Assembly: GCF_000443165.1 (NCBI RefSeq)
Contig: NZ_ATJV01000001.1
Location: 186,001-250,000 of the forward strand
Reading direction: 5' to 3'
DNA: 64,000 nucleotides
DNA from: Thauera terpenica 58Eu
GTDB taxonomy: Bacteria; Pseudomonadota; Gammaproteobacteria; Burkholderiales; Rhodocyclaceae
The stretch's first letter is position 1. Each line of letters begins with the position of its first letter. The notes beneath the pieces are model-generated. The model ran no database searches. It saw only the letters and a program-made list of their open reading frames with translations, and was not told the DNA's origin. This document shows positions 15,020-34,110 of this stretch, one piece after another. The translations under genes were made by a program, and so were the position numbers.

Positions 15020-15331
15020 TCGGAGACACGGCGCGAGTTCACCAACGACGAGGCCACCGACTTCACCGCCATCCTCACCAAGATCAAGCCCCGCACCCCC
15101 GACGCCGGGGTGCAACTCTACGCCCCCTACAGCTACGACGCCGCCACCGCGCTCATCGAAGGCATGAAGGCCGCCGACTCGACCGACCCGGCCACGTACC
15201 TGCCCGCCATGCAAAAGGTGGACTTCAAGGGCGTGACCGGCAACATCGCCTTCGACGCCAAGGGCGACATCAAGGAAGGCGGCATCAGCCTGTATCGCTA
15301 CGCAGACGGCAAGTGGGAGCCGTTGAAGTAA
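15020..15331 (+). pseudogene. Shrunken livK remnant (branched-chain amino acid binding protein)
   Basis: The plus strand reads REFTNDEATDFTAILTKIK then, after a short junction, VQLYAPYSYDAATALIEGMK and on to a normal LivK C-terminus. Against the intact LivK at 34535-35650 it starts at about residue 192 and jumps from about residue 212 to about residue 305. So the signal peptide, the first lobe and about 90 inner residues are missing, while the frame stays open. A ribosome-site-like CTTCGGAGACA sits directly before the fragment, as if the 5' deletion joined the old translation start region to mid-gene. It cannot form a binding protein. Confidence 0.85.
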
Positions 15332-16065: not shown

Positions 16066-16908
16066 TCATTCGACTGTTTGTGGAATCCAGGTTTCGTAGT
16101 GATCATTGCCGAACCATCGGTATCTGAGCGCCCGATCAACGTAAGGCTTGACGGCTTTTCTGACGGATGGAATGACCATCGTGTCAGGCCGACTGTTGTC
16201 GGTCATGGATGACGCCCATTCCTGCCTCAGTACCGCCGCGAGCGCCGCGGGCAACTCCGAAGACAGGCGATAAACCGCACTTGACTTGCTGTGCCAGTCC
16301 GCATCTTCAGATGAGGGCACTGCATCCCAAATCATCTCGCCGTCAATCGACTCGACACGGGCCGGAACGAGGTCGATGAACATCCCTTTCTCCTGCCCTG
16401 CGGCCCACTGCGCGTAGCCTCTGAAGTGGACGCGGTCCGGCACCTGAACCAAAGCGTGCGGACTGAAAGTCATTGGGAAGACGCCCTGCTTCGAGTGGTA
16501 TTGCATGCGGACAGCGCATTTGTGGGTGCAAGCCGCATAGAGGGCGCGGAACACCTCCGCGTCGGGTTCCGGCATGAGCCCGTGAAGGGGGTTCTCCACC
16601 CGTACACCCAACGGGTAGTCCTCGGGTGCATTCTGGAACAGGATCGAAATCCCATCGAGCATGCGCACAAGGTCCGACGGGCGAGAGGGTGCGAAGCGCA
16701 ATCCCTCAGAAGTATCCGCCAGCTTTCGCATCCGTCCTTGGGAGTTGATCAGCCGAACCCGATAGGTCCGCTCGAAGCGACTGATCGTATTGCGCTGCAC
16801 ATGCTCGCGGCTCTGCCCGAGGATCTTGGCAAGGCGCGAGGCCTGGAGACCTGACTCCCAGTAGGCCAGATACTCGAAGAAGATTTCATTAATCTTAGGC
16901 ACATTCAT
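16066..16908 (-). CDS. WYL-domain transcriptional regulator of the CRISPR locus (putative)
   Basis: 280 residues from the ATG at 16908. The N-terminus (INEIFFEYLAYWESGLQASRLAKILGQSREHVQRNTISRFERTY) is a winged-helix DNA-binding domain. A WYL domain follows at about residues 115-190 (CAVRMQYHSKQGVFPMTFSPHALVQVPDRVHFRGYAQW), in which the name-giving WYL is VHF here. A C-terminal WCX-like extension ends with YRWFGNDHYETWIPQ. It is divergent from cas6 with an 86-base gap. WYL proteins sense ligands and regulate CRISPR loci; one (Sll7009) is linked to the I-D system of Synechocystis. Repression of the cas operon and of itself is inferred. Confidence 0.85.
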   Translation of the reverse strand: MNVPKINEIFFEYLAYWESGLQASRLAKILGQSREHVQRNTISRFERTYRVRLINSQGRMRKLADTSEGLRFAPSRPSDLVRMLDGISILFQNAPEDYPLGVRVENPLHGLMPEPDAEVFRALYAACTHKCAVRMQYHSKQGVFPMTFSPHALVQVPDRVHFRGYAQWAAGQEKGMFIDLVPARVESIDGEMIWDAVPSSEDADWHSKSSAVYRLSSELPAALAAVLRQEWASSMTDNSRPDTMVIPSVRKAVKPYVDRALRYRWFGNDHYETWIPQTVE

Positions 16909-16912
16909 AGTG

Positions 16913-16927
16913 TGTGAAAGTATCACA
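16913..16927. promoter_or_regulatory. Palindromic operator candidate between WYL gene and cas6
   Basis: TGTGAAAGTATCACA is a TGTGA/TCACA dyad with a 5-base centre. It lies five bases upstream of the WYL start codon and 68 bases before cas6, in an AT-rich stretch. A weak sigma-70-like pair ATGAAA and TAAGAT (17-base gap) follows towards cas6. It resembles half of a CRP site, but the spacer is five, not six. An operator for the WYL protein is the simplest reading. Confidence 0.45.
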
Positions 16928-16994
16928 GTTATGACAATGAAAAATCCTTCGTGCTCGGATAAGATGACCTCGTAATTTCTCACGAGAGCATGAC

Positions 16995-17705
16995 ATGAGA
17001 GTTCTGATCGATTTTCGCAAGCAGCCCCAGCGCTACCGCTACACCGACAGCATGAACGCAGCCCTGGTCGCCGGACTGGTCGCGGCTGGCCTCCATTCAG
17101 ACGACTTGGTGGGAGAAAAGGCACTTCCATGGACATTCGGCACCGCAGGCAAAGCTGGCCCGGACGGCAGGAGAACGGTGTACTCGGTCATCCTTTCATC
17201 ACCTTCGCCACGCTTCGCCGAGGCGCTTGCGCGCCTTGATCCCGACGAGATTCGGGTGGCGTCGAGCAATGGCGACGCCATTTATCTAGGTGGTGCGGCA
17301 CTACGCCACTGCCCGAGCTTGCCGCCCGAAGGGGTCGCGGAATTGATGGTGAGCTTTGCCAGCCCGTTCCTGGTGCCCATGCCCAAGCAGGGCCGCGAGA
17401 AAACCCGCTTTCATGATGATCTCGTCGGCGTAGACCTCAACGCCGCACTGCTTGCCGGCCTTACTCGACGTGCAGGCCGCGCCCTGGATCTGACGATTTC
17501 GAGCGATCGCCTCTCGATGACGACAGATCTCAAAAAACAGCTCGTCCACATCCGACGCCTGTCGAATGGCAAGCCACTTTTTCATCCTGCCTTTTCCGTT
17601 CCGATGACGCTGCGCGGCCGGCCAGAGGATGTCCGATTCGCCTTTCTGGCAGGTGTCGGCGCCAAGACACGTGCCGGATTCGGCTGCCCGATCCTGATGA
17701 GCTGA
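16995..17705 (+). CDS. cas6: Cas6 pre-crRNA endoribonuclease
   Basis: 236 residues of the RAMP fold. The C-terminus FLAGVGAKTRAGFGCPILMS carries the glycine-rich loop that marks Cas6 (about residues 219-231). An N-terminal ferredoxin-like half begins MRVLIDFRKQPQRYRYTDS. It should cut each repeat of the array on the 3' side of its small hairpin. The catalytic histidine is not certain by eye; HCPSLP at about 103 and FHPAFS at about 197 contain candidates. It opens the cas operon, which differs from the usual I-D order where cas6 follows csc1. Nine bases separate it from cas10d. Confidence 0.85.
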   Translation: MRVLIDFRKQPQRYRYTDSMNAALVAGLVAAGLHSDDLVGEKALPWTFGTAGKAGPDGRRTVYSVILSSPSPRFAEALARLDPDEIRVASSNGDAIYLGGAALRHCPSLPPEGVAELMVSFASPFLVPMPKQGREKTRFHDDLVGVDLNAALLAGLTRRAGRALDLTISSDRLSMTTDLKKQLVHIRRLSNGKPLFHPAFSVPMTLRGRPEDVRFAFLAGVGAKTRAGFGCPILMS

Positions 17706-17714
17706 GGCCGAGAC

Positions 17715-20633
17715 ATGTTGTCCATTGCTCCCACACTCTTCAAGCACTTCCTCGACACCGTTGTGATCGGTGCTGCTTTCAGCGATGCAGAACGTGCGCT
17801 CACCGCAGGGCCGCTCGGTGCAAAGTCGGCACAGGAGGTCGCAGCCAACAAGCGTATCGATCACCGTGCCCCGTATCTGATGACGGTCTCCGGCAAGGGT
17901 GGATACATTCCAGGCCCGGGTTTTGCCAAACGCGAAGGCTTTCGCAACATCAGCCTGCTTGATCATCTTGTCTCTGTCGCACGCGGTAGCGCGGTGTTCG
18001 CCGAACTGGATATGCGCGCAGCGGGCATTGACGACACAAAAATCCGCTTGCGCGTCGCGCTGCTCATTGCGGTGGGCTTCCTGCACGATGCCGACAAGAT
18101 TCTCGGCCTCGCGCGCACGGACGAACTCACGCCAGAGCATGTCGAAAATCTTCTGGAACGATTCCAAGTGGGTCGCTTCCTCGAACAGGCCGGGGTGAAT
18201 GTGTCTGCGGCCGAGCTGCTTTCCATGATTCATGCAGTGGAGCTCAGCCGCAGTGGCACATTGAAGCCCGGCATGCGCTTGCTTTCGGCAGCAGAGAATG
18301 CCGACTGCGGCTATGTGCGGCTTGCTGATCGGCTTGAGGGGCTGTTCCTCAACAGCGCTCTAGGCCCAGCAGCGATGGTGGCAGAACTGCAAAAATTCGG
18401 CGGCTTTCGCAGCCCGTTTTTCACCACAGGCTGGCGTGTACTGCACCTCCGTTCAGGCCATACCCCCTTCCTGCTCAACGCACTTCAGCGCGGCTTGAGT
18501 GCACAAACCGTCGCCCTGTGCGGCATGCCACCCCTGCTGGAAGTCCATCATGACGGCGAGCTGTTCGCGATCGTTCCAGAGCCAGAGGCCAACAGGATCA
18601 TCGAAGGGGGAATACAGCGCGCAACCCGGCCCTTGAATCTGAGCCTGCGTGTGATCGTGCCGCAAGGAAACGGCATGCGTGACATTCAGGACGGCGGCGC
18701 GGGCGTGGACGACTTGCGCGAGGCCTTGCAAGACGACCCGACTTGCGCGGCCAAGTCCTTGTTCGTGCATATCGACTTGTTGATCGGCGACGCGTCCTTG
18801 CGAGATGAAATCGACCGCCTGTTCGGGCCGCTCGGCTTTGCGCCCAACTATGCCGGCATCGACAAGTTTGCCGGCAAGCTCTTCCAGATCTGGCCAGTTC
18901 GCTCGGCAGACGACGAGCTGATTCGCACGCTTCGCACCGAAGCAGCCATGATTGCGGTCGCGCTCGGGTGCACCGAACCCACTCTCAAGGCGCTGGCGGC
19001 GCAGGTGCCGGCGGCCGAGGTGCGTGAAGCCGAACTCCTTGCCACACTGGCGCAGTGTGGCCACGTGGCGCCGGCATGGCTGACGGCGGTCGCTCACCGT
19101 CTGAGCCGCCAGTCCCTCCTGGGCGCGTGGGCGGCAGCCCTTACGGAACAGAACGAGGACTTGCGCGAGCGTCTTTTCGGGGACGATGGCCTGCTCCAAC
19201 TCTGGCTCTGTGGTGACAAGGGCAATCGCGCCGGCCTGTTGGACAAGAACGGTGATCCCGGCGCGGCGCTGGTTGACGCAGCCATGCAGTGGTTCAAGGC
19301 GGTCCTTGGTCGTCGCTTCATGGTGTCAGCGACCGAAGACAGCGCGGGACGATGCCATTTCACCAATCTGCCGGTCGGCATCGAAGTCCGCATCGACTCA
19401 AAGTCTGGTCTGGACGGCATCAAGACCAGCGCGTTCTCCGGGAGGGAGGGTCGACCGGAGTCGTTTGAAAGCAGCAAGGCCCAAACCCTGGTTTCGCCCC
19501 CTGTAGCCGCTGAACATCGCCTACGCACGCTGATGAGCGAGGGTCGTGGCAATGGTGATGTTCCAGCCTATGTCTCTGCACCAACCATGATGGGACTCTT
19601 TGCCAGCCTGAGCATGAGAGCGGACGCCGATTTCATTCAACTGAATCACTACGACCTGATGCGTCAGGAAATCAAACCGGACAGGCCGGTTTTCCCCGAA
19701 AGCGAGATCTACGGGCAGCGCCTGATGTTCGGCCGTCACACCTCCATTCCCGCCAAAACCGTGGAGATCATCGCCTTTGCGCGAATGATGCTGCAGTCCG
19801 CATTGCGAATGGGGCGACCGGTGCACGTATTCCGGGGTCTGCCCACACCTGAAAACGCTTTCGTACATTTCGACTTCCTGCCTGGCGCCATCGAACGCGG
19901 TATCGGTGGGCGCTCCTTGCGACTGGAGCAGATTCCGCCGGCAATCGAACTGTTGCGCGCACTCGAAGCGATGAGCGAAACCCCGAATCTCGGACTGGAA
20001 CTGGCGCTGCGCTACGCCGACCCCACTACTCGCTTTGCCGCCGCCTGCGAAGCACTCGCGGTGCTTAATCGCCTGTCGGACGACAAGCTTAACAAGCTCG
20101 GCAGCCTCAGAACCACCCTTCAAACTTTCACCCGGAGCCCGGATATCAACATGACACCGTCAGACAACGTATTGATCGAATTTGCCCGGGCGATGACTCG
20201 GGTGCAGGACGCGCCTTCACGCGACGCAAGCAACGCGGTTCGCACGCTCGGCCTCAAGGTCGCGCTTGATGCCGTCGAAGCTTGCGCAACGGCCCTTCAT
20301 CAAACAGGCAAGGAAACACAGATTGCGGCCATCGCAGGCACGCTCGAGAACGAATTCGAGCGCTCGTCCCGCCTCGCGTGGCGTGGCAGTCAAAAACAGC
20401 TGCCATTTCCCCGCGTGGCGGCGACGGCGGCAGCCACCCTGTTCGTGGAAAAGGTCTGGCCCATCGCATTCAAAAGCCGCCCGCCTGCGTCGAAAGCACG
20501 TCGAATCGCAATGGCTGTCTATCAAGTGGCCTTCGAGGTCGAATCCTACCGTCCTCGCGACAAAGCGAATTCTGAAGCCACGGTAGCCGATGGCGCTGCC
20601 AAGACCCAAACAAGCGCTGAACCCAACACCTGA
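17715..20633 (+). CDS. cas10d: Cas10d (Csc3), large subunit of type I-D Cascade with HD nuclease
   Basis: 972 residues, the size of Cas10d. The N-terminal HD domain is intact: LLDHLVSVARG (His 84), VGFLHDADK (His 124-Asp 125), MIHAVELSRS (His 173) and RLADRLEG (Asp 205). This is the nuclease that Cas3 carries in other type I systems. The middle and C-terminal parts fit a Cas10-like body (RPVHVFRGLPTPENAFVHFDFLPG), but I see no GGDD cyclase motif, as expected for I-D. A likely structural segment, GRCHFTNLPVGIEV, lies at about 555. In the complex it recognises the PAM and degrades DNA with Cas3'. Confidence 0.85.
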   Translation: MLSIAPTLFKHFLDTVVIGAAFSDAERALTAGPLGAKSAQEVAANKRIDHRAPYLMTVSGKGGYIPGPGFAKREGFRNISLLDHLVSVARGSAVFAELDMRAAGIDDTKIRLRVALLIAVGFLHDADKILGLARTDELTPEHVENLLERFQVGRFLEQAGVNVSAAELLSMIHAVELSRSGTLKPGMRLLSAAENADCGYVRLADRLEGLFLNSALGPAAMVAELQKFGGFRSPFFTTGWRVLHLRSGHTPFLLNALQRGLSAQTVALCGMPPLLEVHHDGELFAIVPEPEANRIIEGGIQRATRPLNLSLRVIVPQGNGMRDIQDGGAGVDDLREALQDDPTCAAKSLFVHIDLLIGDASLRDEIDRLFGPLGFAPNYAGIDKFAGKLFQIWPVRSADDELIRTLRTEAAMIAVALGCTEPTLKALAAQVPAAEVREAELLATLAQCGHVAPAWLTAVAHRLSRQSLLGAWAAALTEQNEDLRERLFGDDGLLQLWLCGDKGNRAGLLDKNGDPGAALVDAAMQWFKAVLGRRFMVSATEDSAGRCHFTNLPVGIEVRIDSKSGLDGIKTSAFSGREGRPESFESSKAQTLVSPPVAAEHRLRTLMSEGRGNGDVPAYVSAPTMMGLFASLSMRADADFIQLNHYDLMRQEIKPDRPVFPESEIYGQRLMFGRHTSIPAKTVEIIAFARMMLQSALRMGRPVHVFRGLPTPENAFVHFDFLPGAIERGIGGRSLRLEQIPPAIELLRALEAMSETPNLGLELALRYADPTTRFAAACEALAVLNRLSDDKLNKLGSLRTTLQTFTRSPDINMTPSDNVLIEFARAMTRVQDAPSRDASNAVRTLGLKVALDAVEACATALHQTGKETQIAAIAGTLENEFERSSRLAWRGSQKQLPFPRVAATAAATLFVEKVWPIAFKSRPPASKARRIAMAVYQVAFEVESYRPRDKANSEATVADGAAKTQTSAEPNT

Positions 20634-20649
20634 GTCTGAACTGGAGATC

Positions 20650-21660
20650 ATGATGCCCCTGAACACCCTCAAGCCCTACCTGGGCGACATCGACGCGCTG
20701 CTTTCCATCACCGAAGAGGACGCAAAGAAATCCTACGCCCAACCCGCGCTGAAGAACTTGGGCTCGGTCACCTTCGTGGTGCTACGAGAACTCATCTCAC
20801 CGGCCTCGTTTCGCAACGCCGAATCAGAGATTACCGATATTGAATCGCGAGGCCGTCGTCATGTCCGCGCAGTGGCCAACAAGTTCAAGTTTGGCGAGCG
20901 CGCGCGCGGGCTACAGGTATTGCGCTTTTTCGCAGCGGGCGGCGTTTCCGCACAAAACAAGACCGCCTTTTACGGCAAGGAAAAGCCGTCCGACAAGTTC
21001 GACCTCAATGCCCTGGTGTTCGGTGACAGTGCCAATGCGGGCAACAAGGTGTTGCCGGTGAAAGCCGCGGCGCAGTATTCAGACGCGATCTCACTGCAGG
21101 AATATGGCGACGCGGTTGATGTCACCTTCCACAACCGCGCATCGGAAGACGGCACGCTGTTCAATGCGCAAAAGAAAGAAAACTCGGTCAACCTGTTCGA
21201 CCGGCACTTTGTCCGCCCCGGCACCCTGTTGCTGCAAACCATCTCGTTCAACGGCAAAGTGGCGCCGCTCGAGGCAGTCGAGCACTTGATCCTTTCGATG
21301 GGTCTGGCCGGCGCCTATGGCGGACAGACGTCGATCTACGGCGTCAATGTGCGCAATCATGTGGTCGGCTGCTACGCCGGGCGCTTCGAGCGCGACCTGG
21401 CCAGCCCCTATGTGGCCGTCGACGCCCTCTATCAGGCCGGCGTGGATGTTGCAGATTCCGTCGCCGTCGTGGATGCCTTGAAAAACCTGTACTCGCACGC
21501 CTACCCGATCGAGGTAAACGGCGCTGAGATTGTTGATGTGCAGAAATCCCTCATCGCCCGACTCGAGGCCGAAGACGATGGCATGCGTACAAGCTATCAG
21601 GGCAATGCGAAGAAAATTGGCATGTATTTCGACGCCTGGTTTGAGGGAATAGGCGGATGA
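20650..21660 (+). CDS. csc2: Csc2 (Cas7-type backbone subunit of type I-D)
   Basis: 336 residues from the first of two adjacent ATGs (20650, 20653), with CTGGAGATC as ribosome site. Conserved Csc2 blocks are LVFGDSANAGNKVLPVKAAAQYSDAISL (about 120-148), FHNRASEDGTLFNAQKKENSVNLFDRHFVRPGTLLLQ (about 158-195) and LAGAYGGQTSIYGVNVRNHVVGCYAGRFE (about 217-247). This subunit polymerises along the crRNA. An in-frame extension upstream overlaps the end of cas10d and is not needed. The stop overlaps the csc1 start by ATGA, so the two are translationally coupled. Confidence 0.88.
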   Translation: MMPLNTLKPYLGDIDALLSITEEDAKKSYAQPALKNLGSVTFVVLRELISPASFRNAESEITDIESRGRRHVRAVANKFKFGERARGLQVLRFFAAGGVSAQNKTAFYGKEKPSDKFDLNALVFGDSANAGNKVLPVKAAAQYSDAISLQEYGDAVDVTFHNRASEDGTLFNAQKKENSVNLFDRHFVRPGTLLLQTISFNGKVAPLEAVEHLILSMGLAGAYGGQTSIYGVNVRNHVVGCYAGRFERDLASPYVAVDALYQAGVDVADSVAVVDALKNLYSHAYPIEVNGAEIVDVQKSLIARLEAEDDGMRTSYQGNAKKIGMYFDAWFEGIGG

Positions 21661-22340
21661 GCACGCCGACTGCCACACCGGTCCGGGCCATAAGCCTGAC
21701 GCCGTTTCACTATCACAGCCTGGCAGTGCCTTCGGGCACAGCGACGCTGGCGGCCTATCTGGCCGATCGTTCAATGTCGTATGCACTGGCCGGCGCCATG
21801 GGGGCGCTCGCGCCCTCGGCAGCCTTGCCGCAAAAGGACTATGCACGCGATCTGCGCCAACTACCCTGGCTGTGCTCGGTCTTCGAAGCGCGCAATCCTC
21901 GTCTGTTGCCAGCGATCGGCAAGCGGCTGAACCTGGACACCGAGGGCGGCTACCAGAAGCGGGTCATGGACGCGACCGGCACCGGCAACCTGAAGACCTG
22001 GTTCTACATCCAGGAAGTGCCCGTCGGCGTGGAATACGACGGCGCCATTTTTGGCATGGACCCGTTTCGCATGGCCAGCGAGGTGGAGCAAAAGGAAGTC
22101 ACGGAAATCATCGTCCGCACCGGACGCCACTTGGGCGGTCTGCTTTCACTCACCCGTCAGCAGGACAGTAGACCCGTCCGACTCAACGCTCACACCGCCC
22201 ATCTTTTCGGACAGCGCCCCGAGGATGACCCCGCGCTGGCGGTGGATGTCTTCGCCTTGTACGACATCCAGGTGACCGCGCCGATGGAACTCGACATCGC
22301 AGCGGCCACGGTGGGCAACTGGCGAGACTTTCAGGCCTGA
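21657..22340 (+). CDS. csc1: Csc1 (Cas5-type subunit of type I-D)
   Basis: 227 residues, overlapping csc2 by four bases. The early segment YLADRSMSYALAGAMGAL matches the ALSYALG block typical of Csc1, and the position between csc2 and the helicase fits. This Cas5-like protein caps the 5' handle of the crRNA in Cascade. Sequence conservation of the family is low, so the call rests on length, the short motif and context. The stop is 12 bases from the cas3' start. Confidence 0.78.
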   Translation: MSTPTATPVRAISLTPFHYHSLAVPSGTATLAAYLADRSMSYALAGAMGALAPSAALPQKDYARDLRQLPWLCSVFEARNPRLLPAIGKRLNLDTEGGYQKRVMDATGTGNLKTWFYIQEVPVGVEYDGAIFGMDPFRMASEVEQKEVTEIIVRTGRHLGGLLSLTRQQDSRPVRLNAHTAHLFGQRPEDDPALAVDVFALYDIQVTAPMELDIAAATVGNWRDFQA

Positions 22341-22352
22341 GGGGCGGTGGAC

Positions 22353-24347
22353 ATGGAGCCGATCGAGTTTGTCATTCCGCGCCACGCCGTGCCATCCGAC
22401 CCGCACAGCGGCCTGTCGCCGCTACAGGAGCGGATGCTGAACGAAGCGGCACCCATCCGCATCTTCTCCGCACCGACCGGAGCCGGTAAGAGCTACGCCT
22501 ATCAAAAGGGCATGCGCGAGCGTGACGAGCGGGTGCTGTTCATCGTTCCCACTCGCCGTCTGGCGCAGAACCTTGCACAAGGACTGGTCAGCGACCTGAT
22601 GCACGACGGTGTGCCGGAGAAGAAAGCGCTGAAGCAGGTGTTGCTGTGGACCTCGGACGAACGCCAACGTCAGGAAGCCGAAGAACCCCAGATTCGCAGC
22701 CGCGACCGCCGCATTGCACAGGTGCGCGCAGAGGCGACGCGCAGCGGTGGCGGCTTCATGGTCGTTGCCACCCCGGAAAGCGTGGCTTGGTATTTGTTGA
22801 ATGCGCATCTGCGTACCGACGGCATCGATCCGGAAAACCTGCTCGACCTCCTGCGCCTGTCTCATGTCGTCTTTGACGAGTTCCATACGATCGAGGCGCG
22901 TGGCATGGGCATGGCCTGTGCGCTGGCCACTTTTGCCTGGCAGGCGCTGGGCACCGCACGCATCAGCTTTTTGTCGGCCACCCCGATCGATCTCAAGACC
23001 ACCCTGGTCGGTTTCGGGATCCCAGCGGAGCAAATTTTGATCGCAGCAGAAACCGTGGTGACGGGCAGCGCGCTTGAAACAGCCGACATGCGCGCAATCC
23101 ATGGGGATGTCTCGATTCGGATTGAAGATGGCGAGGGCTTGATCTCTGCGCTGGATATCCACCGCACGCAGATCATCGACACGCTGGCACGTACCGATGA
23201 CGGGCGGCAAGTGGTGTTGGTGTATGACTCGGTAAAGCAACTGCTGGCCGACAAGCACGCACTGGCGACCTGGTTTGGCAACATCGGCGTCGGGCCAGCT
23301 GAGCGACTGGCGGTCAACTCGGTGGACGACAGCGTCGAGCACGAACTCGATGAGCTGTTCACCATCGGCCGCCAGACCGACCCACGGCAGTTCAAGGTCT
23401 TGGTTGCGACGTCGAGCATCGAGATGGGCGTGAGCTTCAAGGCTGGCCTGATCCTGATGGAGCCCGGACATGATGCCTGCTCATTCGTGCAGCGCATTGG
23501 CCGCGTCGCGCGAGGCGATCTGCCGGGGGCGGTGATCGTGCATGTCACGCGCGCGCAGCTTGACCGTCACGCGTGGTTGCGCCAGTTGAGGCTGGACCTG
23601 GCACAACAAGCACCACGCATCCCGATAGACCGCTTCATCGACCTGGTACTGAAGGCGGTGCGAACCCGCTTCGATGTCAGCGCTGACGAACTGATTCAGG
23701 ATCAAGGTGATTTTCGTCGCATGCCGCAATCCGCTATCTGGTGTGCCGGCTTGTTCTGGGCTGCGCTGCAGCGCAGCGCACGCTACAAGGGCATGAGGGA
23801 TACTTTGCGCAACTTCCAGCCTCGCCACGCAGCCGTCGTTGACGCACTGCTGAGAAAATTGGAGCACTGCGGCCTGGATGCCGCGCGCACGTGGGCTCGA
23901 GCCTTTCTCGAGGAGGCCAAGCGGCTGCGCATGATCCTGCCGAAAGTCTGGCTGGTCGATTCATTGGGCAAGAGGAAAGCCATTCCATGGCACCTCTACG
24001 CAAGCACCGAAGCCTTGATCACTGCACCCACACGCCCGGGGAAAAACGATCAGATCGAAGTACTGCTTTCCGGCTCGATCGTAGAGATCGAGTGTGCCTT
24101 GGGCGGGCGTTGGGTGCGGCGCCACGAAGAGGCCTTGTTCCCGCATGCAGGGTGGACGAAGTCGTTCGAACTGGACGCGATCAGGGAGGCCTGGTTGCGT
24201 ACCGTCAAGTCCGAAAAGCGCGACCCCGGCCTGTCCGACCAGCAGCTCACAGCGCTCGAAGCCGCTGAAAAGCTTGTTCGACTGTCGGGCATCGTGCCCA
24301 TGAGCACGGGCGAAATGGTGGCCAATGACGCAAGCCTCATCTGCTGA
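22353..24347 (+). CDS. cas3: Cas3' helicase without HD domain
   Basis: 664-residue superfamily 2 helicase. Walker A is SAPTGAGKS (residues 39-47), motif II DEFH (175-178), motif III SAT (208-210), and motif VI QRIGRVARGD (about 380). No HD motif is found at either end, in agreement with the HD domain being in Cas10d. It unwinds target DNA after Cascade binding. A GTG at 22347 is in frame, but GAGGGG upstream is better spaced for the ATG at 22353. Its last 23 bases overlap the start of cas4. Confidence 0.88.
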   Translation: MEPIEFVIPRHAVPSDPHSGLSPLQERMLNEAAPIRIFSAPTGAGKSYAYQKGMRERDERVLFIVPTRRLAQNLAQGLVSDLMHDGVPEKKALKQVLLWTSDERQRQEAEEPQIRSRDRRIAQVRAEATRSGGGFMVVATPESVAWYLLNAHLRTDGIDPENLLDLLRLSHVVFDEFHTIEARGMGMACALATFAWQALGTARISFLSATPIDLKTTLVGFGIPAEQILIAAETVVTGSALETADMRAIHGDVSIRIEDGEGLISALDIHRTQIIDTLARTDDGRQVVLVYDSVKQLLADKHALATWFGNIGVGPAERLAVNSVDDSVEHELDELFTIGRQTDPRQFKVLVATSSIEMGVSFKAGLILMEPGHDACSFVQRIGRVARGDLPGAVIVHVTRAQLDRHAWLRQLRLDLAQQAPRIPIDRFIDLVLKAVRTRFDVSADELIQDQGDFRRMPQSAIWCAGLFWAALQRSARYKGMRDTLRNFQPRHAAVVDALLRKLEHCGLDAARTWARAFLEEAKRLRMILPKVWLVDSLGKRKAIPWHLYASTEALITAPTRPGKNDQIEVLLSGSIVEIECALGGRWVRRHEEALFPHAGWTKSFELDAIREAWLRTVKSEKRDPGLSDQQLTALEAAEKLVRLSGIVPMSTGEMVANDASLIC

Positions 24348-24891
24348 GCTCGGCGAATGGGATGCCCCGGTGCGCCGATTTCATGCGCTCGCGGAGCAAT
24401 TCGACCTGCATGGCCTGCTGTTCCAGCACCTCGAATTGTGCGAACGACGTGCCTGGCTACATCTGAATCGAATCGACTATGCCCATCTGGAACCGCGCAT
24501 GCAGTTGGGCATTGTCGCGCATGAGATTCATCGACCCCGTGATCATTCGGTCGAGGGGCTGATGGGGATCGCACCGGACCGCGTAGATTGGGCTCGTCGC
24601 GAAGTCATCGAAGCCAAGGCGGGGGCCGGTGCGCGGGCGGCCGTTTCATGGCAGACCCGCTTCTACGCAATCATGCTGATGGCCGCCACCGGAGTGCGCT
24701 GGTCGGCGGCCAACGAGATTATCGGCGGCCGCAAGCACATCACGGTTGAAATCAAACTCGCCAACATTATCGAGATGGTCGAGATGGCGCAGCGCCTGGT
24801 GCGCTTGCGCGCCGACCCGCTGCCGCCCGCCGCAGCGCAAAAACCAATTTGCGCATCCTGTTCATATCGCTTCCTGTGTGGGCATAGCTGA
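24325..24891 (+). CDS. cas4: Cas4 exonuclease
   Basis: 188 residues. Iron-sulfur ligands are Cys 39 (LELCERRAWL) and Cys 176, 179 and 185 (ICASCSYRFLC). The RecB-type nuclease core has His 66, an Asp in GIAPDRVDW (85 or 88) and EAK at 96-98. Cas4 trims prespacers and fixes PAM choice and orientation together with Cas1-Cas2. The reading frame starts inside cas3' and ends on TGATG shared with cas1, so translation of the adaptation genes is coupled to the effector genes. Confidence 0.88.
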   Translation: MTQASSAELGEWDAPVRRFHALAEQFDLHGLLFQHLELCERRAWLHLNRIDYAHLEPRMQLGIVAHEIHRPRDHSVEGLMGIAPDRVDWARREVIEAKAGAGARAAVSWQTRFYAIMLMAATGVRWSAANEIIGGRKHITVEIKLANIIEMVEMAQRLVRLRADPLPPAAAQKPICASCSYRFLCGHS

Positions 24892-25865
24892 TGGAAACGC
24901 TTTACCTGACCAAGGACGTAAAGCTGGTGCGTGAGCACTCAACCCTGGTGGTTATTCCGTCCGAGGGGCCTCGGCGCCGGGTGCCGATTGAAGGCTTGCG
25001 CAATGTCATCGTTGCAGGAGAGGCGCAGTTGACCACGGCCGTGCTCGGGCTGTGCGGTCGAGGCGCGGTCCGGGTAACCATTCTCGACTGGCACGGAAAC
25101 GTGGTTGGAAGTTTCGAACCCAAGGGTTCGCCCGCTGCCGGAAAGATTCGACTTCTTCAGGCTGCCGCGCACCTCGACCCCGCTCGTCGCATGGAGTTTG
25201 CGCGTGCGTTCGTAATGGGTGCAGCGCGCAATATAAAAGTAAATCTTAAATATCGAGCCTACCGAGGCAATCGTGACCTGGAACGAAGCCTGTCCTTGAT
25301 AGACCCGCTGATCGCACGTATTCCCCAGATGGAAACCGTAGAAAGCCTGATGGGTATCGAGGGCCAGATCCGGGCGTTCTATTACGACGCCTGGGGCATG
25401 ATCGATCATCGGCTGGACTTTGGCGCACGCAGGCGCAGACCACCGAACAATCCCATCAACTGTCTCATCTCCTGGTTCAATGGGCTGGCCTATGCGCTGG
25501 TCCGCAACGAAATCGCAAAAACCCACCTGGATGACTGCATTTCGTTCCTGCACTCCAGCCAGGAGGCGCGCGCATCGTTGGCGCTGGACCTCTCCGAGGT
25601 ATTCAAGCCCGCCATCTGCGACACCTTGATCTTCGAGGCTGTGCTCCGCGAGCAAATCAAGCCCGAGTGGTTTCATCAGGAAGACCAGGTGTGCCGTTTG
25701 TCCGAACTTGGACGAGGCAGCACGCTCGAGTCATGGGTGCGCAAAACTGAGGAGCGGGTTCAAGGCGAACCGTCCTTTCGTGAAGTGATACGCCAGGAAG
25801 CACTGGCGCTGGAGCGGGACCTCCTTGGAATCAAGGAGTACCGCCCCTGGCGGAGGAAGATCTGA
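24891..25865 (+). CDS. cas1: Cas1 spacer integrase
   Basis: 324 residues. Metal ligands are readable as Glu 157 (LMGIEGQIRAFYYDAW), His 221 (ISFLHSSQEARASL) and Asp 233/Glu 236 (LDLSEVFKPAICD). An N-terminal beta domain (YLTKDVKLVREHSTLVV) precedes the catalytic helical domain. With Cas2 it integrates new spacers at the leader-proximal repeat. All key residues are present, so adaptation can be active. The start overlaps cas4 by one base, and the stop overlaps cas2 by one base. Confidence 0.95.
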   Translation: METLYLTKDVKLVREHSTLVVIPSEGPRRRVPIEGLRNVIVAGEAQLTTAVLGLCGRGAVRVTILDWHGNVVGSFEPKGSPAAGKIRLLQAAAHLDPARRMEFARAFVMGAARNIKVNLKYRAYRGNRDLERSLSLIDPLIARIPQMETVESLMGIEGQIRAFYYDAWGMIDHRLDFGARRRRPPNNPINCLISWFNGLAYALVRNEIAKTHLDDCISFLHSSQEARASLALDLSEVFKPAICDTLIFEAVLREQIKPEWFHQEDQVCRLSELGRGSTLESWVRKTEERVQGEPSFREVIRQEALALERDLLGIKEYRPWRRKI

Positions 25866-26164
25866 TGTTCATCGTCATTACATACGACGTAAGAGCCCAC
25901 CGAACCGAGATCTACAAGCGCCTTCTGCTAAAATTTCTGACCCACGAGCAGAACTCAGTCTTTGCTGGCGACTTGACCGAGGCGCAGTATCGCAAACTGC
26001 GCGCCAGCATTTCCAGAATTGCAATTCCGGACGACCGGGTTTTGCAATTCCGCGCAATGAACCGCCATAACATCCAGGCATCCATCCTGGAAAAGAATAG
26101 CGGAAATGGCGCACTGACCGAGCGCTCCCTGCTCCATCACGAAATGAATGCGTTGATCCTGTGA
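25865..26164 (+). CDS. cas2: Cas2 adaptation subunit
   Basis: 99 residues with the ferredoxin-like beginning MFIVITYDVRAHRTEIYKRLLLKFLTHEQNSVFAG; Asp 8 is the usual metal-site aspartate. It has the Cas2 length and forms the Cas1-Cas2 integrase core. It is the last cas gene; its stop lies 117 bases before the first repeat. Confidence 0.93.
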   Translation: MFIVITYDVRAHRTEIYKRLLLKFLTHEQNSVFAGDLTEAQYRKLRASISRIAIPDDRVLQFRAMNRHNIQASILEKNSGNGALTERSLLHHEMNALIL

Positions 26165-26280
26165 CTACGATATCGGATCGTGCAAAAAAGAACGGACTGC
26201 GTAGCTCTTTTGGCATGTTTGCGCAGGCCCTGTTCCGTTTTTTTACCCTCTCGCAGTCGTTAAATGACGAGAAACGGAGG
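26165..26280 (+). promoter_or_regulatory. CRISPR leader
   Basis: This 116-base, visibly AT-richer stretch runs from the cas2 stop to the first repeat. It has A- and T-runs (CAAAAAAGAA, CGTTTTTTTACC) and no open frame. Its position, and the truncated repeat at the other end of the array, mark it as the leader that carries the pre-crRNA promoter and integration signals. No exact promoter can be fixed by eye. Confidence 0.75.
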
Positions 26281-29200
26281 GTTCCCGTTCCCCATGAGGG
26301 GTTAGGAGGAAAACGCCACCCGTAACCGTTGTGCTCGCCAGCGTGTTCCCGTTCCCCATGAGGGGTTAGGAGTCGTACTTGAGCGCGTATGCCTCGAGCG
26401 CATCCTTGTTCCCGTTCCCCATGAGGGGTTAGGAGGCCAGTGCGTCCTTCAGGCTGCGGGTCAGCAGCTCGTGTTCCCGTTCCCCATGAGGGGTTAGGAG
26501 TCCGACGCCTTGGCGTTGGCCGCAACCGCAGTGGTCGTTCCCGTTCCCCATGAGGGGTTAGGAGGGGCGCTCAGGAGCGGGCGCGCGGTCGTCGTTGCCG
26601 TTCCCGTTCCCCATGAGGGGTTAGGAGGTCGTCAGCTTCAGGCCGGTGAGCTCGGCCAGTGTCGTTCCCGTTCCCCATGAGGGGTTAGGAGCGCATCAAT
26701 GGCGTGATCGGCAGCTGGGACAAGGGCGTTCCCGTTCCCCATGAGGGGTTAGGAGGGCGCCACCCACATCGAGACTGTCGAGGACGAAGCCGTTCCCGTT
26801 CCCCATGAGGGGTTAGGAGGACGCCTGGCGCGCCGCCAAAACCGACATGCTGGGCGGTTCCCGTTCCCCATGAGGGGTTAGGAGACCAGCGCGCTGGGGT
26901 TTGGCGCGCCAGGGCAGGGCGGTTCCCGTTCCCCATGAGGGGTTAGGAGACGCCAGGGGAGCGGAAAAGTTGAACGCCAAGCGTGTGTTCCCGTTCCCCA
27001 TGAGGGGTTAGGAGGGGTTCGGGGGCGTTGAGGGCAGCCAAGGCGCGCTCGTTCCCGTTCCCCATGAGGGGTTAGGAGCTTGCCGGATCCCTCGAACTGC
27101 TCCACGACCTCGATGGTTCCCGTTCCCCATGAGGGGTTAGGAGTCTGCGATCTTTGCTTCGAGCCGCTCGCACTTGCCTGTTCCCGTTCCCCATGAGGGG
27201 TTAGGAGCAGATCCTTCAGCCCTTCCAGGCCGGACCCGCGCAGCGTTCCCGTTCCCCATGAGGGGTTAGGAGGAGGCGTTGGTCAGCGCGACGCCCGTAC
27301 CCTCGGCGTGTTCCCGTTCCCCATGAGGGGTTAGGAGAGCTCAAAGAACTCGCCTTGGTCAAGCGACTCGAACGCGTTCCCGTTCCCCATGAGGGGTTAG
27401 GAGCATTGACGTGCAAGTCTTCGGCCAGCATTCTGAGTTGTTCCCGTTCCCCATGAGGGGTTAGGAGAGGCGCTGCATCGCGTTTGCGAAGGCATGGGGC
27501 TACGTTCCCGTTCCCCATGAGGGGTTAGGAGTGTGCTCAAGGTGGATAGCGATGGAGCCATCGGGGTGTTCCCGTTCCCCATGAGGGGTTAGGAGGACAG
27601 CAGTCCGCCTTTCGCGCAGTCACGAACGGACCGTTCCCGTTCCCCATGAGGGGTTAGGAGTCTTGCCCACACAGCGCGAACGGCAGCCTTCCACTCGTTC
27701 CCGTTCCCCATGAGGGGTTAGGAGAACGCCCGCCGCTCGAAGCTGCAATGGCTGCTCGCGGGTTCCCGTTCCCCATGAGGGGTTAGGAGACGTCCTCGGC
27801 CTTGTTCTGGCTGGCCGCGTCCACGGTTCCCGTTCCCCATGAGGGGTTAGGAGGAAAACTGTTGGTCGCCCTGCGCTTGCGCGTCAGCCACGTTCCCGTT
27901 CCCCATGAGGGGTTAGGAGACGACACGCTCGGCATCCAACACGACGGTTGGAATTGTTCCCGTTCCCCATGAGGGGTTAGGAGGTCGCCCAGGCGCGCAA
28001 GGCGTTTGCCGATCACTGGGTTCCCGTTCCCCATGAGGGGTTAGGAGACAAGCCGCGTCACGCACGAGTGCGCACAGGGCTCCGGTTCCCGTTCCCCATG
28101 AGGGGTTAGGAGTACAGCAAGGCGGGCAACGGAACCACGGCAGTAAGCCGTTCCCGTTCCCCATGAGGGGTTAGGAGAACGAGGGCATCATCGTGAAAAT
28201 CGGCCTGCTCGGGAGTTCCCGTTCCCCATGAGGGGTTAGGAGTACTTCACGACGACCGACGGCACGACCGAAGGGACGTGTTCCCGTTCCCCATGAGGGG
28301 TTAGGAGCCGAATGGAGCGCCGCGACAAGCTACACCGTCGGGCAAGTTCCCGTTCCCCATGAGGGGTTAGGAGGTCGCCGCTCTGGTTGCCGCGCTCGCT
28401 GCGTTGAATTCGTTCCCGTTCCCCATGAGGGGTTAGGAGGGTGCTGGGACGAGTTCGGGATGATCGGCGAATTTAGTTCCCGTTCCCCATGAGGGGTTAG
28501 GAGCTCGATCTGCATCATGCGCGCCAGTGCGGCTTCCAGCGTTCCCGTTCCCCATGAGGGGTTAGGAGTGCGCGATGTGTTCGACCGCTACGACGTACAG
28601 GCGAGTTCCCGTTCCCCATGAGGGGTTAGGAGCCGGTGTAGTCCTGCATGTCAGCCGTGCGCGAAAACACAGTTCCCGTTCCCCATGAGGGGTTAGGAGC
28701 GGAAACAGGAGTTCTTACTTGGAAGAGAAACACCCCGTTCCCGTTCCCCATGAGGGGTTAGGAGGTCAGCACCAAGGGCGCGCTGTCAGAGGCTCAAAAA
28801 GGTTCCCGTTCCCCATGAGGGGTTAGGAGTTCGCCGCCTATGCGGGGCTTGAGTGGCAGGACCACATGTTCCCGTTCCCCATGAGGGGTTAGGAGCCGTT
28901 CTAGGAGTCTCATCATGAACGAAGCTGAAGCGTTCCCGTTCCCCATGAGGGGTTAGGAGTAGAGAGCGACGTTGCGCGGATCTGCTCGGTGCTGAGTTCC
29001 CGTTCCCCATGAGGGGTTAGGAGCTCGCCGACACCGGCGACATGGCCGCGGTCACGCGCCGGTTCCCGTTCCCCATGAGGGGTTAGGAGGATCCTCCGCG
29101 CGGCCTTTCGCCCATGTCCGCTCTGGTTCCCGTTCCCCATGAGGGGTTAGGAGGTGTGCGGCCCGGTCGGGTGAATGCAGCGGTCGTGCTGGTTCCCGTT

Positions 29201-32200
29201 CCCCATGAGGGGTTAGGAGGCGCATGGGTGCCGCGATGCGCTCTGCCCGCTCAAGGTTCCCGTTCCCCATGAGGGGTTAGGAGACCGCAGCTTTCGGCTT
29301 GACCGTCTGATCTAATCCCGTTCCCGTTCCCCATGAGGGGTTAGGAGACTGTCCATGGCTGTGCCACACGACTGCGCAAGCAGGTTCCCGTTCCCCATGA
29401 GGGGTTAGGAGCAAAGCAGCGCCAGCACGGCGCAGCGCCTGCGCATCGAGTTCCCGTTCCCCATGAGGGGTTAGGAGCTGGACGGGCTCGATGTGGTCGG
29501 CGTCGCTGTGCAGTTCCCGTTCCCCATGAGGGGTTAGGAGGGGATCAGTTCGGCTGTCACGTTGTCGGCTTGGTCGTTCCCGTTCCCCATGAGGGGTTAG
29601 GAGACTTCCGCCTCGTTCCTCACGAACTTGAATTGTATGGTTCCCGTTCCCCATGAGGGGTTAGGAGCTCACCCGTTCGGTGCTCGCCTTCGGCTGCGCT
29701 CCGGTTCCCGTTCCCCATGAGGGGTTAGGAGTTGAATGGGGGCCTGTTTGTGATGCGGCGGAGGCCGGTTCCCGTTCCCCATGAGGGGTTAGGAGTTAGC
29801 GGTAGTTATTCTGGTTCGCTCGGTGGTCGGGGTTGTTCCCGTTCCCCATGAGGGGTTAGGAGCTTGGCGCGAGGATCGGCCATCTCATCCTGCAAAAGGT
29901 TCCCGTTCCCCATGAGGGGTTAGGAGTGGATCGACCGCATCTATTCGCCGGACTGGCCGTGCGCGTTCCCGTTCCCCATGAGGGGTTAGGAGGCCGCCAG
30001 CACGTGGTCGTGTTGGGCTTCCAGTTTGGCGTTCCCGTTCCCCATGAGGGGTTAGGAGAGCGTGAAAACCTGATTCGCGGGCTTGAGAAAGCACAGTTCC
30101 CGTTCCCCATGAGGGGTTAGGAGAGCGCCCTGGTCGTCACCAACGAAGGCGCCACCACCGTTCCCGTTCCCCATGAGGGGTTAGGAGGCCATCAACCACG
30201 ACCCCGAGGCCGTGGCCATGCACGGTTCCCGTTCCCCATGAGGGGTTAGGAGCTCGCCCGATCGGCCTCCAGCCGCTTAACCCGCTCGTTCCCGTTCCCC
30301 ATGAGGGGTTAGGAGCACGCCGTCCTCACCATCGCCCAAGGGTTCGTCGGATGTTCCCGTTCCCCATGAGGGGTTAGGAGAAGTTGTTTAGCTTTTCTCG
30401 TGCTTGTTCGTATGTGGTTCCCGTTCCCCATGAGGGGTTAGGAGTTGATCTCTCCGCCCATACCCGGCCCGAAGGACAATCGTTCCCGTTCCCCATGAGG
30501 GGTTAGGAGCGGATCGACGTTGAACCGCCGCATCGTGCTACCTGGCGTTCCCGTTCCCCATGAGGGGTTAGGAGCACTGATGGACCGTCGGGACAGAAAC
30601 GCCTATTGCTCGTTCCCGTTCCCCATGAGGGGTTAGGAGCGCCCCGCGAACGCGCTCAGCTTGCAGATGGTGGGTGTTCCCGTTCCCCATGAGGGGTTAG
30701 GAGCTCGCCGCAGGGAAGCTCGACTTCAACAAGCCGCTTGTTCCCGTTCCCCATGAGGGGTTAGGAGGACATCGGCCCGAGCACGCTCGCCTGGGTTACC
30801 GAGGTTCCCGTTCCCCATGAGGGGTTAGGAGGAGATCTGCGCCGGCATCGAGGACGCCACCGACGGCGGTTCCCGTTCCCCATGAGGGGTTAGGAGCGGC
30901 ACTCAACGCCGACGACGCCGGCCTGGAGGGCGAGTTCCCGTTCCCCATGAGGGGTTAGGAGATGAGCCGGCTCGCACACGCAGCGCTCGGGGCGCCGGGT
31001 TCCCGTTCCCCATGAGGGGTTAGGAGCCCGTCCTTCAGGGCGGGGAGGATGTCAACTTCGCAGTTCCCGTTCCCCATGAGGGGTTAGGAGCAGGTTTCTC
31101 ATCCGTCCAGGCTGTATGTGACCGACGTTCCCGTTCCCCATGAGGGGTTAGGAGAGCAGCGTCGCGTTGCCGAAGTAGAGCGAGGCCAGCATGTTCCCGT
31201 TCCCCATGAGGGGTTAGGAGGGACGCCTCTTCAATCGCTTGCTGAATCAGTTGTGCGGTTCCCGTTCCCCATGAGGGGTTAGGAGATGAGCATTTGCAAC
31301 GCCGATGTGAGCGGTAACGAGGTTCCCGTTCCCCATGAGGGGTTAGGAGACTGTCGAAGCCGCCATCAAGCAGATGCAGAGCGCCAGTTCCCGTTCCCCA
31401 TGAGGGGTTAGGAGATCGCCAAAGCTGCTGGGCGTAGGGGTCGGAGTGGCGTTCCCGTTCCCCATGAGGGGTTAGGAGACGACCCACATGCCCCTGTCAC
31501 GCAAGGCGGTCACGGTTCCCGTTCCCCATGAGGGGTTAGGAGTCCCTCTTGGCCCGGCCTTTTGCGCCGGGCATTTTTGTTCCCGTTCCCCATGAGGGGT
31601 TAGGAGAGCAGCTACTGGCGCAAGCCGGATGCGACGTTCCACGTTCCCGTTCCCCATGAGGGGTTAGGAGGACGAGCTCGATGAGCGTGTCGCCGGCTAC
31701 CTGCCGTTCCCGTTCCCCATGAGGGGTTAGGAGCCAGATCATGCCGGCGGGCAGTTCGATGCCGTCGAGGTTCCCGTTCCCCATGAGGGGTTAGGAGATC
31801 TCGGCGTTCGTGCGACCGACCATCTGCGCGTTGAAGTTCCCGTTCCCCATGAGGGGTTAGGAGAAGTGCTGATTCGCCCGCCTCCATGGCACTAACGATG
31901 TTCCCGTTCCCCATGAGGGGTTAGGAGACGCTGGTGGCCACGCTCAAGCCCAGCTTCACCGCACGTTCCCGTTCCCCATGAGGGGTTAGGAGCTCAGCCA
32001 AGGCGACATAGACGCACTAAGCTACCTCGTTCCCGTTCCCCATGAGGGGTTAGGAGAAGAATGCGCCGGATCGTGAGGCGCTCCTGATCAAGGTTCCCGT
32101 TCCCCATGAGGGGTTAGGAGGGCGCAAAGTTCTCGCACACCTCGAGCGCCCGCCCGCGTTCCCGTTCCCCATGAGGGGTTAGGAGTGCAGCACTCGTTCG

Positions 32201-34110
32201 AGCAGTCCATGTAACTCCGTCGTTCCCGTTCCCCATGAGGGGTTAGGAGTTCGGCGATTGGCCGGAAGAGTCGGCCGAGGGGGCGAGTTCCCGTTCCCCA
32301 TGAGGGGTTAGGAGTGGTCGTCGGCGCCTGCCTGAGGCAGCTCGCGCACCGTTCCCGTTCCCCATGAGGGGTTAGGAGTGGTCGTCGGCGCCTGCCTGAG
32401 GCAGCTCGCGCACCGTTCCCGTTCCCCATGAGGGGTTAGGAGCGCATCCACAGGTCGTAGCGGGCGATGGGCTCCATGCGTTCCCGCTCCCCATGAGGGG
32501 TTAGGAGACCATCAAAACCAAACTCGCCGCCGGCATCTACAAGTGTTCCCGTTCCCCATGAGGGGTTAGGAGAGCGTCGCATCAGCCGCAGGGGCATGCA
32601 CGGGCGCAGGTTCCCGTTCCCCATGAGGGGTTAGGAGCCGACGAAAGGGCGCGGCTACGACTCGCCTCACTGGCGTTCCCGTTCCCCATGAGGGGTTAGG
32701 AGGCCGACATTCAGCGCTTCGATGTCGTCGTCGCTCGTGTTCCCGTTCCCCATGAGGGGTTAGGAGTCGATCGCCCGCCGCACCGCCGGGCGCGCGCGCC
32801 GCTGTTCCCGTTCCCCATGAGGGGTTAGGAGGCCCGCCGGCGGTGCGGTACAGCTTGAGTTCCGTCCAGTTCCCGTTCCCCATGAGGGGTTAGGAGGATT
32901 GCGACTCCAAGTTGTTCTTGAACTCGAGCGTCGTTCCCGTTCCCCATGAGGGGTTAGGAGACCAGCGGACGCCCCTCGGCGTCCACCACGCGGCTGTGTT
33001 CCCGTTCCCCATGAGGGGTTAGGAGTGGACCCGGTTCAACCCAGACGTCGCGCGGATCAAGGTTCCCGTTCCCCATGAGGGGTTAGGAGTGTGCCGACTG
33101 CTGCTCTGCCGCGGCGCGGCGCATTGTTCCCGTTCCCCATGAGGGGTTAGGAGTGGGTCGGCTGCTGGCCCATGGCATGGAGCTGCATTGTTCCCGTTCC
33201 CCATGAGGGGTTAGGAGACGATTGCTGCGTCGGCGTGCAGGTCGGGTGCGGTGGTTCCCGTTCCCCATGAGGGGTTAGGAGAACTTCTACGCCTGGGACA
33301 TGCCCACGCGGGCGTACGGTTCCCGTTCCCCATGAGGGGTTAGGAGTCGTCCTCGGTGTGCTCTTCCCCGTCGAAGCCCTCGAGTTCCCGTTCCCCATGA
33401 GGGGTTAGGAGAAACTCGCGCCGCTCACAATGCCGCCTACGGCACAAGTTCCCGTTCCCCATGAGGGGTTAGGAGACCCTGTTTGCCGGTGGCGCCACAC
33501 CCGCCGTGGCTGTTCCCGTTCCCCATGAGGGGTTAGGAGTCGCCCTGATAGCCATGCGCACGCGCCACGCGCTGCGTTCCCGTTCCCCATGAGGGGTTAG
33601 GAGTTGGTCGTCCAGTCTCGCCGTGCCCACAGCTCCTTCTCGTTCCCGTTCCCCATGAGGGGTTAGGAGGCCGAGCAGCAGGGTTACAGGCTCGGCCGCA
33701 AGGCGTTCCCGTTCCCCATGAGGGGTTAGGAGTCGACGTGCACCGCGTAAGTCGCGCCGCGCCGTTGCGTTCCCGTTCCCCATGAGGGGTTAGGAGCTGC
33801 GGCCACCGACGCCGATCGGGACGGTTGGCGGCGTTCCCGTTCCCCATGAGGGGTTAGGAGGATCACGGCTGGCCTCGCTCGAATCGAGCGCAGGGAGTGT
33901 TCCCGTTCCCCATGAGGGGTTAGGAGAGCTTCATGGGTCGCCTCGGGGGTTCTGGTTGGGACGGTTCCCGTTCCCCATGAGGGGTTAGGAGTGCGGCGCG
34001 ACGGCCTCAGCGGCCGGCTTGTCCTGTTGTTCCCGTTCCCCATGAGGGGTTAGGAGGATCGCGCAGCGTCGTTCGTGGGTCGAGTCCCGCTCGTTCCCGT
34101 TCCCCATGAG
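26281..34110 (+). CRISPR. CRISPR array, 121 full repeats plus a truncated last repeat (121 spacers)
   Basis: The 28-base repeat starts GTTCCCGTTCCCC and ends GGTTAGGAG. The centre is a CCCC/GGGG stem with an ATGA loop. Stepping through by hand I count full repeats from 26281 to 34029, with periods of 63-67 (spacers 35-39), and a terminal one at 34093 that matches only its first 18 bases. Repeat 97 (32480) has one T-to-C change; I noticed no other variant. Leader-proximal end and direction follow from cas2 and the degenerate far end. After cutting by Cas6 the handle would be GTTAGGAG or one base shorter. The minus strand shows long LLTPHGERE/PNPSWGTGT frames that are only repeat translation. 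Confidence 0.97.
32315..32414 (+). repeat. Tandemly duplicated spacer (spacers 94 and 95)
   Basis: The two 36-base spacers at 32315-32350 and 32379-32414 are identical, both beginning TGGTCGTCGGCG and ending GCTCGCGCACC, with one repeat between them. This is a 64-base spacer-repeat unit duplicated in place. Confidence 0.97.

Follow-up and report, generated by a model that had tools for sequence, protein, structure and literature searches.

The window analysed here, a 64,000-nucleotide (nt) stretch of the Thauera terpenica 58Eu genome (contig NZ_ATJV01000001.1, positions 186,001 to 250,000), contains a CRISPR (clustered regularly interspaced short palindromic repeats)-Cas locus at positions 16066-34110, in which a divergent gene for a putative WYL-type regulator is followed by cas6-cas10d-csc2-csc1-cas3'-cas4-cas1-cas2 and a repeat array. 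We consider it very probable that this locus is a complete type I-D system from a distinct and mainly proteobacterial branch, which has short repeats, an I-B-like Cas1 and probably a protospacer adjacent motif (PAM) of its own. Behind this reading stand six computed lines of evidence: the genes present, the predicted folds, the conservation of catalytic residues, the repeat length, the affinity of Cas1 and the association of protospacers with ATC. The eight cas genes lie on the plus strand between 16995 and 26164, every one an open frame, and the occurrence of this gene set together with the array is far beyond chance. An earlier note, made from the sequence alone, had recognized the I-D gene content, and the eight genes were found at the place and in the order that it described.

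To define the lineage, we scanned the genome_contigs collection (84,980 genomes) once with a Cas10d alignment; this pattern search yielded at least 39 loci, and a further four (L004-L007) came from searches among plasmids and relatives. L016 and L037 were dropped as the same records as L007 and L006 by contig and coordinates, and L025 as nearly the same as L018, which left 41 distinct loci, the window included.

Effector genes

Profiles of the PADLOC library assigned to I-D ranked first for all five effector genes (Cas6d, Cas10_Id, Cas7d, Cas5d and Cas3d). The Cas10d and Csc1 proteins of the window had no match at E ≤ 0.001 in Pfam or NCBIfam, and their predicted structures were compared with the PDB. 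The Cas10d model (predicted local distance difference test score, pLDDT, 84.2) gave four matches at E ≤ 0.001, all of them I-D Cas10d chains (best 7sba_I, 1.8e-12). The Csc1 model (pLDDT 86.9) gave nine at the same threshold, of which the top two were the Cas5d chains of the I-D Cascade, 7sba_H (3.6e-6) and 7sbb_H, the others coming from III-D, VII and IV-B systems. Assignment of the effector to another subtype was rejected because of these predicted folds and the Csc2 matches, which point to I-D.

The domain layout given in the earlier note, with an HD domain on Cas10d and an HD-less Cas3', held up. Residues H84, H124-D125, D127 and D205 of the Cas10d HD domain were invariant in 34/34 lineage members and stand in the type-I (non-permuted) order. 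In Cas3', Pfam detected helicase-type and restriction/DEAD-type families only and no HD domain, and the helicase motifs were conserved across 31 members.

Several results on the effector weigh against the I-D reading. The four PDB matches of Cas10d have template modelling (TM) scores of 0.30-0.46, and a Foldseek overlay on 7sba_I gave a TM-score of 0.42-0.45 with a root-mean-square deviation of 16 Å, which a different placement of domains would explain. In hhalign comparisons with canonical I-D proteins, the probability for Cas10d was 65 with five canonical rows and 98 with eight, and similarity of the Csc1 sequence was undetected (0.7 in the 8-row sets). The NCBI Csc3 model (NCBIfam) matched 6/34 members at E ≤ 0.01 and left the window Cas10d unnamed. 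A sequence search of the PDB with a five-member Cas10d profile recovered none of the I-D chains. In the same 8-row sets, Csc2 reached 98 (98.1), Cas6 67 and Cas3' 99.7. In favour of I-D, the PADLOC Cas10_Id profile matched all 34 members. As a whole, the effector is type I-D by its predicted fold, with sequence similarity that is weak for Cas10d and undetected for Csc1.

These weak similarities bear on the idea that the locus represents a type I subtype of its own with no more than a resemblance to I-D, in which a Cas10-like large subunit is combined with an I-B-like Cas1. Family profiles missed the Cas10d, Csc2, Csc1 and Cas6 of five canonical loci at 1e-4, Csc1 showed no profile similarity, and Cas1 is indeed I-B-like (see below). 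We nevertheless regard this idea as improbable, since the Cas10d and Csc1 models match I-D chains first, Csc2 exceeds the I-D cut-off of NCBIfam, Cas3d is the best profile for Cas3', and the gene order is that of two haloarchaeal I-D loci.

Repeats and array

The array contains 121 full 28-nt repeats, of which 120 are exact and one carries a single substitution, separated by 120 spacers of 35-39 nt (mode 36; 119 unique). Exact 28-nt repeats occurred in 24 of the 26 distinct loci with this array (23 plus L015, which is close to L014). The two others, both from Paracoccus, have degenerate repeats with means of 2.6 and 3.2 substitutions relative to the window repeat. This count leaves out L031, whose only array consists of five 35-nt repeats beyond the WYL gene. 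Tandem repeats without CRISPR character, seen in L015 and L047, are left out as well. All seven other I-D loci with arrays (L048-L053 and L118) have a 37-nt repeat; in the remaining one, L054, an array was not detected. The 28-nt repeat thus marks the lineage, and the suggestion of a distinct I-D lineage, which the earlier note had linked to gene order and to this repeat length, was borne out.

The consensus common to 23 loci is GT.......CCCCATG.GGG.T...GA., and a CCCC/GGGG stem is predicted in the window repeat, with a folding energy that is not exceptional (z -1.65). The end of the L021 repeat, ATTGAGAC, resembles the canonical ATTGAAAC, and the lineage repeat looks like a canonical repeat shortened on its 5' side, with the hairpin and the 3' handle kept. 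The gap between cas2 and the array measured 116-154 base pairs (bp) in 18 of 20 loci, and an alignment of 19 leaders revealed no strongly conserved motif.

Adaptation genes

The expectation of an I-D type Cas1 (Cas1d) failed in the window: the Cas1b profile scored higher, and the tree placed Cas1 with I-B. In this tree of 36 rows, from which three short lineage rows were dropped, the 20 lineage rows formed one clade (100/100), which joined four I-B rows, three of them long, on a 100/100 branch, apart from 12 I-D, I-C, I-G and III rows. Among the checks proposed in the earlier note, the subtype profiles supported I-D for Cas10d and Csc2 and returned Cas1b and Cas2b for Cas1 and Cas2, and the Cas1 phylogeny recovered the lineage as a single clade that groups with I-B and not with I-D.

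Adaptation genes often move between CRISPR systems, and for this reason the I-B-like Cas1 was not taken as excluding I-D. The Cas1 tree and the best score of Cas2b suggest that an exchange with an I-B system, probably of cas1 and perhaps also of cas2, preceded the diversification of the lineage. An objection is that the best profile for Cas4 is Cas4d; the I-B leaning applies to Cas1, more weakly to Cas2, and not to Cas4. A single Cas1 match was present in the whole genome, and the locus is therefore the only cas1-bearing system found there.

Spacer targets and the probable PAM

Perfect protospacers were found for four spacers: s53 in the IncW plasmid R7K, s59 in a genome of the same family (G550), and s8 and s6 in IMG/VR viral contigs (the viral pattern scans gave a match in 2 of 6). 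In each of the four cases, 5'-ATC preceded the protospacer in the copy read. The targets appear to include viruses and conjugative plasmids.

We then tallied distinct protospacers at ≥ 80% identity for 15 spacers. ATC was frequent for s6 (2/2), s59 (1/1), s74 (5/5) and s61 (3/4, the best one having ATT). It was one of two motifs for s13 (ATC 1, GTC 1), preceded 3/8 protospacers of s53 (with GTC 2, GTG 1, GCC 1 and CTC 1) and preceded 4/12 of s115. Against an ATC motif stand s24 (AGC 10/10) and s3 (AGG 5/5), as well as s71 (two protospacers) and s76, s100, s101, s104 and s117 (one each), for none of which ATC was seen. Imperfect matches were mixed (s71 CGC; s76 ATG; s117 GCC; s115 CTG, ATC, CTC and ATG), the flank of s53 was read in only one of several perfect plasmid copies, and all of this evidence comes from one array, that of the window. 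The weak matches, although included in the tally, are likely to be drifted or chance homologues. Taken together, the protospacer flanks make 5'-ATC the probable PAM of the lineage. Published I-D PAMs, as given in PMC10212523, are GTN (Synechocystis) and GTH; the perfect protospacers of the window spacers lack GTN in the copies read. A PAM is not a classification criterion.

No spacer matched the window outside the array at up to five substitutions. The arrays of three other members were also compared with possible targets. When searched against plasmids, L020 spacers had matches in the two lineage plasmids only, and L005 spacers in the record from which they came and in one further plasmid of that strain; L009 spacers gave no match against phages.

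Some targets were conspicuous in themselves. Spacers s24 (27790) and s115 (33670) match sites approximately 110 bp apart in many genomes of the same genus. In Achromobacter phage AchV4, the s115 site falls within rdgC and has ATC upstream; the same site is preceded by CTG, ATG or CTC in the 16 same-genus copies read and by ATC in three same-family copies. The target of spacer s74 (31027), present in unrelated phages and genomes, carries a hairpin, and we take it to resemble the end of an IS200/IS605-type element. Spacer s53 (29668) matches plasmid sequence without an annotated gene in many plasmids, sometimes at several sites (six in a Denitratisoma plasmid record).

Gene order and position within type I-D

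The genes found were colinear in all 41 lineage loci. The earlier note had regarded this order as unusual for I-D, which proved not to be so: the order cas6-cas10d-csc2-csc1-cas3' also occurs in both haloarchaeal I-D loci examined (Halorussus and Natribaculum), and gene order was discarded as a mark of novelty. The reference order cited there, cas3'-cas10d-csc2-csc1-cas6, applies to the six cyanobacterial and Chloroflexota loci examined and not to the two haloarchaeal ones. Two features absent from that note, the resemblance of Cas1 to I-B and the probable ATC PAM, distinguish the lineage better than its gene order.

A Cas3' tree separated the lineage (99/99) from the other I-D rows, all eight of which formed a second clade (99/96); branches were long, that of the outgroup above all, and the root is unsure. 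These two clades, together with the order common to the lineage and haloarchaea, suggest that the cas6-first order may be ancestral.

A simpler view is that the locus represents ordinary I-D, equivalent to an already described group from "other bacteria", and that its differences are trivial. The PADLOC library already files the lineage under I-D, its Cas10_Id profile matching every member, and the 2023 review PMC10212523 distinguishes four Cas10d lineages, one mainly from other bacteria, and describes I-D groups as varying in their regulator and in where cas3' and cas6 lie. However, repeats of 28 rather than 37 nt, the I-B-like Cas1, ATC instead of GTN and the two Cas3' clades all speak for a separate branch, and Chlorohelix, the only control that is neither cyanobacterial nor archaeal, looks canonical. 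We therefore judge this view unlikely, if by no means negligible, and retain a distinct branch of I-D. More tentatively, and with somewhat less than even weight, the branch may be a deep sister lineage (an I-D variant or a new subtype) with an I-D-like Cascade, crRNAs (CRISPR RNAs) with 28-nt repeats, an ATC PAM and a lasting coupling to an I-B-type Cas1, in which case the cas6-first order would be ancestral and the cyanobacterial order derived.

Among the matches listed in literature searches, no paper had a proteobacterial I-D lineage or its hallmarks as its subject; an earlier description, for instance in McBride 2020 (Mol Cell) or in the supplement of PMC10212523, may exist. With a deep second I-D branch that differs in repeat length, in Cas1 and probably in PAM, it becomes possible to test which traits of I-D are ancestral, and a proteobacterial I-D system with a different PAM would broaden the range of I-D tools.

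Distribution and integrity of the lineage

By record title, in our own sorting, 31 of the 39 loci from the genome scan are proteobacterial (Alpha-, Gamma- or otherwise, L016 being titled only "Proteobacteria"). The lineage extends beyond proteobacteria in the other eight (Desulfobacterota-type, SAR324, Vicinamibacterales, Truepera, Entotheonella and Binatia), a reach absent from the earlier note. The lineage is rare: it was present in 1/398 genomes of a phylum-wide sample, namely that of the window, and in 2/101 relatives, the same genome included. Carriage of the system by viruses was rejected, two Cas10d scans of viral_contigs having yielded no relative. In NCBI annotation of three plasmid copies, cas10d and csc1 are labelled "hypothetical protein", and the lineage is thus easily overlooked.

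Among the 41 loci, all eight cas genes were found in 21, at least cas6 to cas3' in 32, and the WYL gene in 35; many incomplete loci are contig fragments. An array was present and cas1 undetected in L004, L013, L028, L029 and L036. The repeats of the Paracoccus loci L004 and L013 have drifted, as expected once acquisition stops; in L036, cas4-cas1-cas2 were likewise undetected, yet the 28-nt repeats are exact. In a genome of the same genus (G013), matches to the window array occur on the contig with its cas genes and also on another one (L056, G013:C28:56-796).

The decayed appearance of the two Paracoccus relatives, with cas4-cas1-cas2 undetected and repeats degenerate, raises the question of whether the window locus is itself decayed or inactive. 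This is very improbable, because its genes are all open, the catalytic residues are present, 120/121 repeats are exact, and two spacers near the leader, s6 and s8, have perfect matches in viral contigs. The window system is genuine and probably working.

Features of the locus and proposed mechanism

Table 1. Features of the CRISPR-Cas locus (window coordinates)
Feature	Position	Strand	Remarks
WYL-type putative transcriptional regulator, divergent	16066..16908	-	likely start 16908, 86 bp from cas6
cas6 (Cas6d), predicted crRNA-processing endoribonuclease	16995..17705	+	Pfam Cas_Cas6_C; PADLOC Cas6d 128.6 bits
cas10d, large subunit, N-terminal type-I-like HD domain	17715..20633	+	PADLOC Cas10_Id 1283 bits
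putative internal small subunit cas11d, 160 amino acids	20151..20633	+	in-frame ATG at Cas10d codon 813
csc2 (Cas7d), backbone subunit	20590..21660	+	TIGR03157 40.2 bits (cut-off 38); Pfam Csc2 38 (cut-off 25.5)
csc1 (Cas5d)	21657..22340	+	PADLOC Cas5d 334 bits; model fold
cas3', HD-less helicase, 666 amino acids	22347..24347	+	PADLOC Cas3d 499 bits
cas4	24325..24891	+	Pfam Cas_Cas4 70.3 bits; PADLOC Cas4d 166.5 bits
cas1, I-B-like	24891..25865	+	PADLOC Cas1b 265.6 bits vs Cas1d 168.4; tree
cas2	25865..26164	+	Pfam CRISPR_Cas2; best PADLOC profile Cas2b
leader, 116 bp from cas2 stop to first repeat	26165..26280	+	
CRISPR array, 121 full repeats and 120 spacers between	26281..34056	+	
partial terminal repeat, 18 nt	34093..34110	+	after one further 36-nt spacer

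The regulator scored below the cut-off of the Pfam WYL family (E 0.0023; 18.3 bits, cut-off 21.8), and its homologues on plasmids (L004 and L006) carry a WYL annotation. To the left of the locus lies a 3' remnant (15110-15325) of a gene for a branched-chain amino acid binding protein, and an intact paralogue (34535-35650) lies to the right, the two sharing 57% amino acid identity over 72 residues; the pair is perhaps the scar of a rearrangement or insertion.

In 25/34 lineage members, a start codon with a suitably spaced Shine-Dalgarno sequence was found near Cas10d residues 806-813, within a single stretch of eight codons, compared with 10/34 at the cas10d start itself and 5/34 in the next internal stretch. 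The nine members without it are the window, six of its closest kin (L007, L009-L012 and L020), L019 and L046. It must be set against a window Cas11d that its own clade keeps the internal Met but lacks a well-spaced Shine-Dalgarno sequence; in the window the ATG is present and its Shine-Dalgarno sequence falls outside the spacing criterion. A Cas11d made from the internal start is therefore putative in the window, if likely.

The anatomy of the locus suggests the following mechanism. The array would be transcribed, and Cas6 would cleave where the CCCC-AUGA-GGGG hairpin of every 28-nt repeat has its base, so that a 5' handle of approximately 8 nt remains. Csc2, Csc1 and Cas10d, probably joined by a Cas11d translated from the internal start, would assemble Cascade on the crRNA and locate protospacers adjoining a 5'-ATC PAM, after which the separate Cas3' helicase would be recruited and the Cas10d HD nuclease would cut the DNA. 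Cas4-Cas1-Cas2, with the I-B-like Cas1, would insert spacers of approximately 36 nt at the leader end, and the divergent WYL regulator probably controls expression.

Comparison with known systems

The I-D loci on haloarchaeal plasmids (Halorussus pelagicus L053 and Natribaculum luteum L118) share with the window the complete order from cas6 to cas2, but have a Csa3 regulator in place of WYL, 37-nt repeats, Cas1d and a Cas3' of the other clade. The I-D system on pSYSA of Synechocystis PCC 6803 (L048) has the same gene content and a divergent WYL regulator, but differs in that cas3' comes first and cas6 follows csc1, and in its 37-nt repeat, its Cas1d and the published PAM GTN (PMC10212523). The predicted Cas10d and Csc1 folds resemble those in the I-D Cascade structures 7SBA and 7SBB. 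The Cas1 of the lineage groups instead with the I-B proteins of Thermus, Flammeovirga, Haloferax and Arcobacter plasmids (100/100); the Thermus locus, the only one of the four in which effector genes were examined, differs from the window in its I-B effector (Cas7b/Csh2 and a TM1802-family protein).
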